NCBI GenBank assembly: GCA_011049455.1 | Contig: DSBL01000082.1 | Coordinates: forward strand, 1-64,000 | DNA: 64,000 nt | Reading direction: 5' to 3' | Origin: Desulfonatronum sp. | Lineage (GTDB): Bacteria; Desulfobacterota; Desulfovibrionia; Desulfovibrionales; Desulfonatronaceae | Part shown: one piece after another, positions 1-9,267 of the stretch | How the letters are laid out: each line of letters opens with the position of its first letter | How positions within the stretch are numbered: the stretch's first letter is position 1 | Translations under genes and position numbers: made by a program | Notes under the pieces: generated by a model | What the model was told of the DNA's origin: nothing | The model's input: only the letters and a program-made list of their open reading frames with translations | Databases searched by the model: none

Positions 1-121
1 CCATTATACTGGCCATAAGGTGGCCTCATTACGCTGGCCAAAGGGTGGCTCCATTAGACTGGCCAGAAGGTGGCCTCATTATACCGGCCCTCAAGTGGCT
101 CTATAGCAGTGGCCAACAACA
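1..121. repeat. 25-bp imperfect direct tandem repeats (units at 2, 27, 52, 77, degenerate fifth at ~102), probably the terminus of an IS21-family-like element running off the left edge
   Basis: Units CATTATACTGGCCATAAGGTGGCCT / CATTACGCTGGCCAAAGGGTGGCTC / CATTAGACTGGCCAGAAGGTGGCCT / CATTATACCGGCCCTCAAGTGGCTC. Read on the minus strand, the boundary begins TGTTGTTGGCCAC, i.e. 5'-TG with multiple internal repeats, as in IS21-type ends. No transposase is visible. Confidence 0.6.
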
Positions 122-1425
122 GCCAACTCAGCGATTGTGATGCCAGGATTTTCCCGCGCTGCTCGTAAAATCTTCTCCGACGTTTTCTCCGACGTTTTCT
201 CCGACGTTTTCTCCGACGTTTTCTCCGACGTTTTTCCGGTTTCACCCGCTTCGGGGACGCTGACTATCATCCGGAAGGCATCTCCCTCGACAAGTTGCGG
301 ATCGGCTCCGCCGTACAACTTGCCGTATTTCATCATGTTGCGCATGCCGGAGCCGAGTTCGTCCGCCCGGTCGATTTCCCGGAAAAAGGCACCGATCACC
401 GGGTTCTTGGGATATGGAGCGAAGGTGTCGGGATCAAGAGCGCCAAAGCCATGAGCACGGTTGGCATTGTAGGTTGTCACCTTACCGCGCTCGATGACAA
501 GCCGGGCGGGAACGCCGCTGGCATATTCCCGGTGGATCAGCAGATTGGATGCCACTTCCCGGAAGATGGCATCCCGCAGGCTTCGACGCTCATCGCCTTC
601 CAGATAGAATGGATCGGGGAGATGCTTCCGGATGAAGGCCATGATCCGGTCGTAAGTGTCAATCAGGTTGGTGCGCACCAGGTCGCGGTCGTCGTAGCGG
701 TCCAGATTCACCTTGCGCAAGATCAGATCCATCCTGTGGGCCGGACAGACCTGCAGGATCTGGGAGTCGGTTCCGAGCAGCATGATTCCGGCCAATGTGA
801 TGCCGAAGCCGCGGTTTTCCGGATGCGGCTGGTAGAGCTGGGCACTTTTCACCAGCGCTTCATCATCCATTCCGACCCACGGATGCCCCGGGTGATTGAT
901 GCGCACATGGTTTCGGCAGCGTTCAATCAGGTCGGCACGAAGATCGGCAGGCTGGATATGCACATAAACCGTGTTCTCGCTGTAGGTGGCCTATTTGCGC
1001 TGGTAGAGGCGGGCAACCTGGACGGTATTGTCGGTGATGTCCAAGTCACCGTCCTCGTTGCGGTCGTAGATGCGCCCGTTACAGCGATGTACCTGCGAGC
1101 TTTCCGGGATATAAATATGTAGCAGCGTTTTCCCTTCCAGCACAACTTCATCCATCGAGAGGTAGGCGGGGGGCTGTAGTTTTTGGGGGTTGTTTATAGC
1201 CGCAACAAAATCCTTTTTCAGTTGCCCCACCGCATCACTGGCGATGCCGGTTATTGTGCCCGAGTCCTCAACACCGAGAAGCACTGTTCCGCCATGGCGA
1301 TTGAGAAAGGCGCAAACCGTATCGTAGACGTCCCGGCTGACTTGGTTCCGGCACGCTTTGAACTCGGTCGAGATTCCCTCGCCCCCCGCGATCAGCGCCC
1401 TCAACTTGTGTTCATTCGTGTTCAT
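122..1425 (-). pseudogene. AlbA_2 / RecG-like ATP-binding transcriptional regulator, interrupted by in-frame TAG and truncated at the 3' end
   Basis: ORF 991..1425 (AlbA_2-like: STEFKACRNQ...GGTVLLGVEDSG) and ORF 91..963 (HATPase_c_4-like: REVASNLLIHREY...GSGMRNM) are in the same frame, separated by one TAG at 991-993 followed by ATYSENTVYV. The C-terminal ITIAELA motif runs into the 25-bp repeat array. Confidence 0.75.
169..235. repeat. 12-bp tandem microsatellite (CGTTTTCTCCGA) encoding (TSEK)n on the minus strand
   Basis: Four perfect 12-bp units at 181-228 with degenerate flanking units; translated TSEKTSEKTSEKTSEKTSEK. Confidence 0.9.
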
Positions 1426-3319: not shown

Positions 3320-4756
3320 ATGAAACGCATTCTTCTCGCTTCCACTGACACGCGCAGCCCCAGGGTGGTGACCGAAGCCTTTGCCCCGGATTGCAAGGTG
3401 GATACCGCCGCCACCAGGGACCATCTGCAGGACCGGCTGACAAAGAGGGAATACGACTTCATCATGGTGGACATCGGCTTTCTGGACATTCTTCCGGAAA
3501 AGACCGTGCCCGACTATCGCAAGGACCTGCAGTGCTACTGGCGCAACAACCCCAACGCCGAGATCATCGTGCTCACCCCGCCGGAGCGGATCCGCGACGC
3601 GGTCTTCGTAGTCAAGGCCGGGGCCGGCAACTACCTGACCTATCCTCTGAACAAGGACGAACTGCTGTTCGTCATCGAGAGCCTGTACGAGTCTTTGAAG
3701 GTCCAGTCCGAACTGGATCATTTCCGGGACGAGGCCATGGTCGGCGACATCTGCCGGCTGACCGAGATGAACAGCCCGGCCATGCGCAAGGTGCACGAGA
3801 AGATCAAGCTGGTGGCCGGCACCAACACCACGGTGCTGTTGAACGGCGAGACCGGTACGGGCAAGGGGGTCATTGCCCGGACCATCCACTCCTACAGCCC
3901 GAGAGCCCAGGAGCCTTTCATCGGCGTGCACTGCGGGGCCATTCCGGAAACGCTCATCGAGAGCGAGTTTTTCGGGCACGAAAAGGGCTCCTTCACCGGC
4001 GCGGTGCGCCGCAAGCTGGGCAAGTTCGAGCTGGCTGCCAAGGGTACCATTTTTCTAGACGAGATCAGCACCATCAGCCCTTCCACCCAGATCAAGCTAC
4101 TCCAGGTGTTGCAGGATAAGGTCTTTCAGCGTGTCGGAGGCGAGCGGGACATCCGGCTGGAGGCGCGGATCATCGCCGCCTCCAACGTGGACCTGAAGCC
4201 ATTAAGCGACCAGGGCGCGTTCCGCACGGACCTCTACTACCGGCTGAATGTCTTTCCCATCGATATTCCGCCCCTGCGCGAGCGGAGCGAGGACATTCCC
4301 CTGCTGGTGGACCACTTTTTGAAGCGGCTGAACCGGTTGCACATCAAGGAAATCCACGGCGTGCATCCGGCGGTTTCCCACGCCCTGACCAACTACGACT
4401 GGCCGGGCAACGTGCGCGAGCTGGAAAACATCATCGAACGGGCCTTTTTGTTGGAAACGTCCCATGTGCTCACGCCGGAGAGCATGCCCCAGGAGATGTT
4501 CGAGGGGCTTGGCCAGGGCGTGACCTTTGCCCTGGACATCACCCAACCCCTGGCCGAGGTCCGGCGCATGGCCCTGGACAACGTGGAGCGGTCCTATCTC
4601 AAGGCTTTGCTGGAAAAATACCAAGGCAGGATCAAGCTGTCCGCGACGCATATCGGCATTACCCCTCGCCAACTGCACAACCTGATGATCCGCCACGGCC
4701 TGCGCAAGGAGGAATTCAAGCGGTCAGGAGGGGCGTCAACCACGAGGGCTCACTGA
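3320..4756 (+). CDS. Sigma54-dependent response regulator (NtrC family) with degenerate receiver domain
   Basis: Walker [18 protein letters not shown] loop, [22 protein letters not shown]-finger region, C-terminal Fis-like HTH; N-terminal ~120 aa CheY-like fold with VDIGFLD. Confidence 0.9.
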
Positions 4757-6675: not shown

Positions 6676-9267
6676 TCAGCGCTGAAACGAATAATTTTCC
6701 TTGAAAAACTGCTCCACATACCAGGGGATCTGTTCCTCGTCGGAAAGGACCATGTCCAATAGGCGCACCGAGCCCAGCAGGCGACCCAATTGATCCAGTT
6801 TGTCCTCCATGCGCGGTCGGTCGTATTTCCGGATTTCCGCACGCACCATGTCTCCCTTGATTTCAGTGCGCAGACCCAACCGGCGCAATACAGCCGCGAT
6901 CATCTGCGCTCGTCGAGTGCGCCGGGACACGTCTGCGGCCCCGCCCTTGAACGAAAAGGTGATGTAATTGTCGTTTACGTTTTCGCCGCAAAAGGCGTCG
7001 ATGGTCACGAAGTGATAGCCCAGCCGGGCACTGTAGTTCAGATATTCTTTGGAGATGATGGCATAATTCGGGCCGCCCATGGGCGCTTCGCGCTGGGGAT
7101 CGTTGAGCACGGTCTCGGCGATGATCGAGGCGAAACCGGTCAAATGCACGCCCACCGGTCCGACCCAGTGCACGCCTGGATGGGACATCCCCCGCAACAG
7201 GGCCAGAAACGGTCGGGAAACGATGGTTTCCTCCCGGACAACATCGCCTTCGGAAGCCCCCTTGAATCCGCCACCCAGATCAAGAACATAGGTGTTCAGC
7301 GGCAGGGAGGTCTGCAGTCGCAAGGCTCGGTTCTTGTCCTCCCGAATGTCTTCGCCCAGGCGGAACATTTCAGTCATGGCCTTTTCATGGACGAAGCGGA
7401 CCACGTCGTGCAGGGTCAGACATCCTTCGGGGCGGAAATCCTCGCGCTTGGGGTCGATCAGATGCAAAGGCACGACTTTTTTTAGTGTTTCCTTTACCAG
7501 GCGAAACAAAGGGCTGCCTTTCATCATGTTGGTGCGAGGCTTGGAGCGCGTCAGGGCGCTCACTGTTCCGGCGTAGACCACTCGGCGTGAGGCGTCCAGA
7601 GTGATCTCCTCCCCGTGGGGCAGAATATGGGTGCCCTTTTCCACGCCAACCAGGGTTGGCAGGCCGAATTCCCGAGCCACTGCAGCCATGTGACCGGCCA
7701 CGCTGCCCACATCCGTGATGATGCCCCTGATTTTGCTCATTAAGGGCACATACATGGGCGAGGTCTGGGCAGTCACCAAGATCGCGCCCTCAGGCACAGC
7801 GGAAAGGTTGTGGTCGGATTTCAGGACAAAAGCCGGTCCGCTGGCAGCCCCGGCCGAGGCAGTCACCCCTCCGGACAAGAGAATTTCATGGCTGGCGGCG
7901 GTTGCTCTCCCATCCTTCTTGTGCGCATCGGCTCGATCCTCGGTTTCCAATTGGTCCAGGTCCTTCAAATTCAGCGGCCGAGCCTGAAGGACAAACAGCT
8001 TGCCGGACTGGTCAACGGCCCACTCGATGTCCAGGGGCTGTTTGTAGTGTTTTTCCAGGGCCTTGCCGTGGCTTGCCAGCAGCCGGATTTCGTCCTGTTC
8101 CAGACACGATCGCTCTGCCTTTGACGCTTCAACGCTCACCTCGGCCAGTCCACCTTCCGGGCTCATGACCAGCTGCTGGTGTTTGGCCGCAACTTTGGAC
8201 TCCAACACTTCGAGGTCCTTTTTGCCGATCTTCCAGCAATCCGTGGGCATGGAACCGTCCACCACGCTCACTCCCAGCCCCCAGGCCGCGCTGACGATCA
8301 TGGTTTCCGCACGCGGGGCGTTGGGATCCACGGTATAGAGAACGCCGCTGGAACGGGCGTTGACCATGTTCAGACACAAGACGCACATGATCATGTCCTG
8401 GTCCCGATAGCCCACGCTTCGCCGGTAAAAAACAGCGCGAGGGTTGTACATGCTGGCCATGACCTGCTTGTACGCCTTGATAATGTTTTTGTCCGTGACG
8501 TTAAGCACCGTGGAATGCTGTCCGGCGAAGGAGGAATCAGAGTCTTCACCGGTGGCGCTGCTGCGTACGGCCAAGCGCGTGTCCGAGCCGAAGTTCCTGA
8601 ACAGCTGACAGGTTTCGTAAAGAATTCGATTTTTCAGTTCTTCGGGAAGGGGCGCGGCCATGATCCGTTCCTGTACGACTCGACAGGCTGTTTCCAATTG
8701 ATTCGTGTCCGCGATGTCCAATCCCTTGAACTGCTCGCGGATTACGTCGTAGAGCTTGCTGGTGCGCAAAAAATGATGTCCGGCGTAGGCCGTGACGGCA
8801 AACCCACGGGGCGTGGGCAATCCCGCCCGGTTGGCGATTTCTCCCAGATTGGCCGCCTTGCCGCCGACCTGCTCCTGGTTTTCACGGCTTAACGCGGCCA
8901 GCGGCATGACCAGGCAGGAGCGCTCCAGTTTCCTCTGGCGTGACAACCCGTGCAGCACCTGAACGCCGATTTTTTCCGCGGCAGTGAAAAGGCTCGGGTA
9001 CTTGCCCTGGGAGAGGGCATTCAAGTCCTCGGCCAATTCGTAAACCACACCGACCAGCTCCTCGCAACGCCCCAGGACTTCCTCAAAAGTGAAAGGGCGC
9101 TGGGCAAAGAGGAGATTTTCCAGATCATTGATGATTTCCAGGGCCTTGTGGTTGTGCCCGAGCAGCTGCTTGAAATATTGATATTTGCGTTGGGACTCCG
9201 ACTCATCCCCGGCAACGCGCATGGCGATTTTGCTTTTTTGAAAAAGCTGATCTAAAAATTTGAACAT
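6676..9267 (-). CDS. PEP/pyruvate-binding-domain protein (PEP-synthase-like) with atypical C-terminal domain
   Basis: PPDK_N-like ATP-grasp (QVGGKAANLGEIANRAGLPTPRGFAVT...AVRSSATGEDSDSSFAGQHSTVLNV), mobile His domain (GSVAGHMAAVAREFGLPTLVG), then ~290 aa without the canonical PEP-utiliser TIM-barrel motifs. Confidence 0.85.
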   Translation of the reverse strand: MFKFLDQLFQKSKIAMRVAGDESESQRKYQYFKQLLGHNHKALEIINDLENLLFAQRPFTFEEVLGRCEELVGVVYELAEDLNALSQGKYPSLFTAAEKIGVQVLHGLSRQRKLERSCLVMPLAALSRENQEQVGGKAANLGEIANRAGLPTPRGFAVTAYAGHHFLRTSKLYDVIREQFKGLDIADTNQLETACRVVQERIMAAPLPEELKNRILYETCQLFRNFGSDTRLAVRSSATGEDSDSSFAGQHSTVLNVTDKNIIKAYKQVMASMYNPRAVFYRRSVGYRDQDMIMCVLCLNMVNARSSGVLYTVDPNAPRAETMIVSAAWGLGVSVVDGSMPTDCWKIGKKDLEVLESKVAAKHQQLVMSPEGGLAEVSVEASKAERSCLEQDEIRLLASHGKALEKHYKQPLDIEWAVDQSGKLFVLQARPLNLKDLDQLETEDRADAHKKDGRATAASHEILLSGGVTASAGAASGPAFVLKSDHNLSAVPEGAILVTAQTSPMYVPLMSKIRGIITDVGSVAGHMAAVAREFGLPTLVGVEKGTHILPHGEEITLDASRRVVYAGTVSALTRSKPRTNMMKGSPLFRLVKETLKKVVPLHLIDPKREDFRPEGCLTLHDVVRFVHEKAMTEMFRLGEDIREDKNRALRLQTSLPLNTYVLDLGGGFKGASEGDVVREETIVSRPFLALLRGMSHPGVHWVGPVGVHLTGFASIIAETVLNDPQREAPMGGPNYAIISKEYLNYSARLGYHFVTIDAFCGENVNDNYITFSFKGGAADVSRRTRRAQMIAAVLRRLGLRTEIKGDMVRAEIRKYDRPRMEDKLDQLGRLLGSVRLLDMVLSDEEQIPWYVEQFFKENYSFQR

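Follow-up and report, generated by a model that had tools for sequence, protein, structure and literature searches.

The PEP-utilizing dikinases are built around an ATP-grasp domain and a swivel domain that carries a histidine. In PEP synthase (PpsA; NF005057/TIGR01418, PDB 2ols and 9dae) the protein also has a PEP-utilizers_C TIM barrel, and enzyme I of the sugar phosphotransferase system, which has the swivel His domain, uses PEP via a C-terminal barrel. Rifampin phosphotransferase (RPH; NF041857, PDB 5hv1), HpeHI, PpsAB and CreHI have the ATP-grasp and swivel His domains with the acceptor part replaced, and the principle of a swapped domain was already known from RPH and the HpeHI-type kinases (PMC4844700, PMC12167813). 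A protein annotated as a 'pyruvate phosphate dikinase' has also been described genetically. The nitrate cluster of Desulfovibrio reported by Korte et al. in 2014 comprises the TauE-like DVU0251, the hypothetical DVU0250, the PtxB-like DVU0249, the kinase DVU0248, the receiver DVU0247 (360 bp), the dikinase DVU0246 and the phosphatase DVU0245 (PMC4001038). With an insertion in DVU0246, DVU0247, DVU0250 or DVU0251, 100 mM nitrate no longer affected growth, and a leaky thiosulfate transporter was suggested by these authors. The sole annotations of DVU0246 and its counterpart Dde_0604 were PEP/pyruvate-binding and mobile domains (PMC4001038). A dikinase of this nitrate-cluster type is not mentioned in Trotter 2023 or Rajeev 2011.

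The gene analysed here lies at 6676..9267 on the minus strand of a 64,000-nucleotide stretch of Desulfonatronum sp. DNA (contig DSBL01000082.1, positions 1 to 64,000), referred to below as the window. From the ORF and the AlphaFold model it encodes a PEP-synthase-like dikinase of 863 aa with an unnamed C-terminal domain. The original prediction concerned 6676-7572, which corresponds to codons ~566-863 plus the stop, the last third of the gene, and the motifs quoted in it were all located. The PPDK_N-type ATP-binding domain and the mobile phospho-His domain that it described were both found by Pfam: PPDK_N (PF01326) at aa 131-438 (7954..8877, minus strand; E 7e-92) and the PEP-utilizers mobile, or swivel, domain (PF00391) at aa 491-560 (7588..7797, minus strand; E 4e-20). 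The codon of His526, the predicted phospho-carrier, is at 7690..7692 (minus strand), and this residue was kept without exception in the 70 full-length homologues. The additional N-terminal ~130 aa noted in the same prediction proved to be real and conserved across the relatives; aa 24-109 (8941..9198, minus strand) form three long helices according to AlphaFold and the alignment, with F32, L36, N39, F59 and L93 near-invariant among the 70 full-length sequences. The C-terminal domain spans aa ~586-863 (6679..7512, minus strand) and matched no Pfam, NCBIfam or PDB family. In Pfam, aa 1-130 and the last ~300 aa gave nothing above cut-off, even at E ≤ 10.

The resemblance to PEP synthase, comprising PPDK_N and the central swivel phospho-His, extends over aa ~117-581, whereas the TIM barrel is missing from the window protein, which has the unnamed domain and the extra N-terminal helices. 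The NCBIfam PEP synthase models scored 382.9 bits (cut-off 598) and 360.8 bits (cut-off 739.75), far below the equivalog cut-offs, with the alignment ending at ~aa 581; PDB sequence matches to PEP synthase ended at ~aa 577. PEP-utilizers_C (PF02896) was absent from the window protein and from all 83 homologous C-terminal domains at Pfam E ≤ 10, and a PDB sequence search with the C-terminal domain returned nothing significant. Genuine PEP-utilizers_C proteins, one of 596 aa, are encoded separately in the same genome. The AlphaFold models were confident, with pLDDT 88.6 and pTM 0.80 for the full length and pLDDT 86 and pTM 0.68 for the C-terminal part. The latter consists of a long helix (619-647) together with largely antiparallel strands and helices, with no eight-fold beta/alpha barrel. 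Foldseek with the full-length model retrieved PEP synthase, RPH and PPDK, the best match covering approximately the first two domains. With the C-terminal model, nothing in the PDB was matched at E ≤ 0.001 (best 2plg, E 0.025, TM 0.22), and among viral structures the matches were weak (best 4.6e-3, TM 0.18). The proposal that the last ~290 aa lack a PEP/pyruvate TIM barrel was thus upheld by Pfam, the PDB searches and the predicted fold, and the PEP-utilizers_C match that would have contradicted it was found by neither sequence nor fold.

Other assignments of this domain were considered. A diverged TIM barrel was ruled out by the Pfam searches of the 83 sequences at E ≤ 10 together with the predicted fold. 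A YbjN or type III secretion-chaperone fold for the second half was hinted at by 2plg, 4h5b and 3kxy (E ≥ 0.025, TM ≤ 0.22), and profile comparison gave the YbjN fold a probability below 1%. An internal duplication within the domain was looked for and none was seen.

Conservation was measured on an alignment of 70 full-length family sequences. K137, R235, E415, Q428 and R430 of the ATP-grasp domain and H526 of the swivel domain were invariant in all 70; the first five are presumably the counterparts of the essential nucleotide-site residues of PPDK, and H526 that of the phospho-carrier histidine. Both domains that define the PEP-utilizing dikinase superfamily are thus present with their catalytic residues. 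In the C-terminal domain, C616, H620, D621, R624, H627, H752, N767, F773, G775, G776, R786 and D838 were invariant and D806 and E628 nearly so, E628 being retained in 96% of the 70 sequences. These residues include the motif C616-x3-H620-D621-x2-R624-x2-H627-E628 (CLTLHDVVRFVHE in the window protein; 7384..7422, minus strand), which falls mostly on the single long helix of the model, and a second patch, N767-Y768-x4-F773-x-G775-G776 (6940..6969, minus strand), both delimited from the alignment. Every site was intact in 173 of 191 aligned rows, a count that includes repeats and truncated contigs. Since the ATP-grasp and His residues are intact, the first catalytic step, phosphorylation of His526 by ATP, is likely to be retained; by homology, the ATP-grasp domain would move the beta-phosphate of ATP to His526. 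The second step must need something other than a pyruvate site. As the pyruvate barrel has been replaced by a different conserved domain, the acceptor is likely to be other than pyruvate. We propose that the swivel would bring the phosphate to the C-terminal domain and that the C/HD/R/H site there may take part in its transfer to a nonpyruvate acceptor, which might be a protein or a small molecule that all the paralogs share.

This architecture is not a one-off. At least 513 relatives were confirmed in the genome contig search, and this number together with the residues invariant in 70 sequences places the conserved combination with the unnamed domain far beyond chance. The C-terminal domain was found in 107 of 297 sampled genomes of the phylum, with between one and eight copies per genome detected at that search's sensitivity, and the family frames in these genomes were almost all ~830-1080 aa in length. 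As many as eight or nine paralogs were counted in a single genome, with the same C-terminal site. The relatives among the matches listed include records labelled Nitrospirae, Acidobacteria, Schekmanbacteria, Ignavibacteria, Deferribacteres and Rhodocyclaceae. Two frames of 1,261-1,833 aa with the look of giant fusions (L142 and L125) were left out, as the N-terminal ~950 aa of L142 resembles out-of-frame translation and L125 has runs of N. The genome of the window itself encodes seven full-length copies, the other six being 29-38% identical to the window protein; in one paralog (L007; L009:15069-17627, plus strand) the C-terminus is degenerate. The clade of the window protein is the sister of one that holds L013, L073 and a LamG-tailed group, whose neighbours are ChrB-like, MFS and HD-domain genes, mostly with no TauE or receiver. 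This last group comprises the paralog L003 (L010:9140-12319, plus strand) from the same genome and L027, L030, L034, L044, L059, L060 and L080, and carries a tail of ~200 aa weakly resembling LamG/3-keto-disaccharide hydrolase domains.

One extrapolation from the known swapped-domain enzymes is an ordinary small-molecule dikinase, whose C-terminal domain would bind a metabolite that is imported or exported by nearby transporters, and whose product would feed a pathway. Both RPH and hydroxyphenylethanone kinase act on small molecules (PMC4844700, PMC12167813). The C-terminal invariants other than F773, G775 and G776, together with D806, are polar and resemble a ligand or catalytic site, and transporters do adjoin the family genes. 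We nevertheless regard this explanation as unlikely. Up to eight or nine paralogs share the one site, their contexts are varied and dominated by regulators rather than by the enzymes of one pathway, and some relatives have no kinase part. A direct parallel with RPH is also lacking in the layout, as the His domain of RPH is at the C-terminal end, while in the window protein it lies centrally (aa 491-560) and ~290 aa follow. Against a cut-off of 999, NF041857 scored 258.8 bits, and the RIF-binding domain was not matched in sequence. Of the original suggestion that a swapped acceptor domain implies a different substrate, the different acceptor is likely given the replaced barrel, whereas the C-terminal domain is at most a candidate for an acceptor-substrate domain of the RPH kind, being shared by seven paralogs and also joined to the N-terminal part in dikinase-less relatives, in a family that sits with two-component and TauE permease genes. 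Nothing was found in favour of glucans or carbohydrates as acceptors.

In four relatives of 390-408 aa (L137:1811-2989, L149:1477-2655, L138:1667-2890 and L144:2077-3246, all minus strand) the N-terminal part is joined directly to the C-terminal domain and the dikinase is missing, which points to a separable module made of the two ends of the protein, with the dikinase inserted between them. Because these relatives keep the C-terminal domain, it is possible that this domain accepts no phosphate. Degenerate copies with a decayed ATP-grasp, His or C-terminal site were found at L140:1456-5394 (minus strand), L143:5114-7603 (minus strand) and L146:3722-6382 (plus strand). In some clusters (L143, L146 and the L140 pair) copies with a decayed ATP-grasp adjoin intact ones, which suggests catalytic/pseudo pairs, and members of the family could function in hetero-assemblies. 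A noncatalytic role would fit these observations, with the module binding a receiver, phosphatase or permease as a structural partner and the dikinase acting as a regulatory insertion. The short proteins do adjoin such genes, namely a receiver and a DSP phosphatase at L137 and L149/L178, and C8-TauE at L138 and L144, and the pseudo-copies lie next to intact ones. The intactness of the ATP-grasp and His residues in the great majority of aligned rows (the 173 of 191, repeats and truncated contigs included) argues against it, and we consider a purely structural role quite improbable.

Eighty loci were picked by the C-terminal domain alone, and the flanking genes were clustered and then relabelled by profiles. 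Receiver genes were present at 51 of the 80 loci, histidine kinases at 47, TauE/SafE permeases at 30, universal stress proteins at 19 and DUF4881 proteins at 14. For 25 of 95 family genes a same-strand receiver was found at a distance of 350 bp or less, 18 of these being CheY-like in length. Across 13 complete genomes, 20 of 34 family genes lay within 10 kb of TauE, where circular shifts predicted 1.66 and not one shift in 20,000 attained 20, and a family gene lay within 12 kb of TauE in 12 of the 13 compared with 1.5 expected; these figures measure co-location rather than control, among genomes that, being partly related, are not fully independent. The linkage is not one frozen block, as three or more layouts carry it: C4-DUF4881-TauE running divergently from the dikinase, TauE-C8-Usp-receivers-dikinase, and TauE adjoining the dikinase. 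Within the genome of the window, a receiver gene is within 5 kb of five of the seven copies, a set to which the window copy does not belong. The survey of architecture and neighbours proposed in the original prediction revealed a widespread domain accompanied by TauE and two-component genes. The strong linkage of the family to TauE/SafE permeases, histidine kinases and CheY-like receivers is new here; no paper naming the C-terminal domain or this linkage was found in a literature search that covered mostly open-access papers. Two recurrent, unnamed neighbours, c4 (~267 aa; e.g., L035:2230-3030, minus strand) and c8 (~242 aa; e.g., L011:10383-11108, minus strand), appear to be membrane-bound and accompany TauE in the clusters, with DUF4881 as a third partner. 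At L139:1718-4289 (minus strand), on a complete genome, frames of 177 and 634 aa beside Usp-C8-TauE are the pieces of one broken family gene.

Since signalling genes and sulfite/sulfate-type transporters adjoin the family, its members in sulfate-reducing and related bacteria are probably anion-uptake regulators rather than metabolic pyruvate enzymes. Many paralogs with one conserved site are what would be expected of a signalling family, and the dikinase-less module, the seven paralogs and the two-component and TauE neighbours point no less to signalling or the control of transport than to a small-molecule kinase. We hypothesized that the window dikinase belongs to a family of signalling dikinases, most likely controlling the transport of anions of the sulfur oxyanion type via TauE/SafE and two-component systems, a reading for which belief and doubt weigh about equally. 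In such a system the partner pair of CheY-like receiver and histidine kinase would set, or receive, the activity of the dikinase, and the activity of the permease would be altered, as judged from the gene neighbourhood and the published mutants of a syntenic relative.

Swivel domains can also serve protein acceptors, as that of enzyme I passes its phosphate to a protein; the window protein, which shares this domain, lacks the barrel through which enzyme I uses PEP. On this precedent the family could act as an alternative histidine kinase, the phosphate moving from His526 to H620 on the HD helix and from there to an aspartate in the partner CheY-like receiver. At many loci a receiver gene stands immediately upstream, the HD pair opens the long helix of the model, and H620 is invariant in the 70 full-length proteins. 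Yet the same cluster usually contains a conventional histidine kinase, and any likeness to a kinase H-box is one of appearance. In L137, L138, L144 and L140 it seemed that H620 was strictly lost along with the dikinase, a rule broken by L149, which lacks the dikinase and keeps H620. Such a phosphorelay is considered quite improbable. A broader version would make the family another class of bacterial signalling kinase, whose ATP-charged His526 and HD site relay to CheY-like receivers or directly to TauE-type permeases and so tie anion uptake by sulfate reducers to the energy state of the cell; this is distinctly unlikely.

The favoured reading, control of anion transport, connects to the nitrate cluster through gene order. 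At locus L013, the paralog L006 from the genome of the window is found with a PtxB/phosphonate-binding protein, a histidine kinase, a CheY-like receiver and a DSP phosphatase, in the published order of DVU0249 to DVU0245. L073 is nearly alike, with the order TauE, PtxB, kinase, family protein, DSP phosphatase and receiver. From this gene order DVU0246 was inferred to be a family member, although at an annotated 2235 bp it falls short of the usual family length. DVU0246 and Dde_0604 represent a paralog other than the window gene, which lies outside any such cluster and does not share the gene order. Many proteins of the family probably carry a PEP synthase or pyruvate phosphate dikinase annotation despite the missing pyruvate-handling domain, and recognition of the family would clear false gluconeogenic enzymes out of metabolic models. 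It also offers a handle on why loss of a 'dikinase' gives nitrate resistance in Desulfovibrio, nitrate being an inhibitor of oil souring. Should the TauE link be true, an ATP-driven phosphohistidine enzyme would join the control of sulfur-anion transport.

The window copy itself sits between pyrD and pyrB according to the ORF reading. No TauE was found on its contig and the nearest strong receiver is 53 kb away, and with neither TauE nor a receiver-only gene nearby, the role proposed for this copy is an extension from the family. A sigma-54 promoter upstream of the dikinase gave no match, the window containing fewer matches than its shuffles, and a defence system was rejected on finding no PADLOC match. 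Near the pyrimidine genes, an NtrC-type sigma-54 activator is encoded at 3320-4756 (plus strand), its receiver domain scoring below the Pfam cut-off (20.9 versus 30.2 bits). At 91-1425 (minus strand), tandem frames of 144 and 290 aa look like one regulator split near 963-991, and the second frame carries a run of SEKT repeats.
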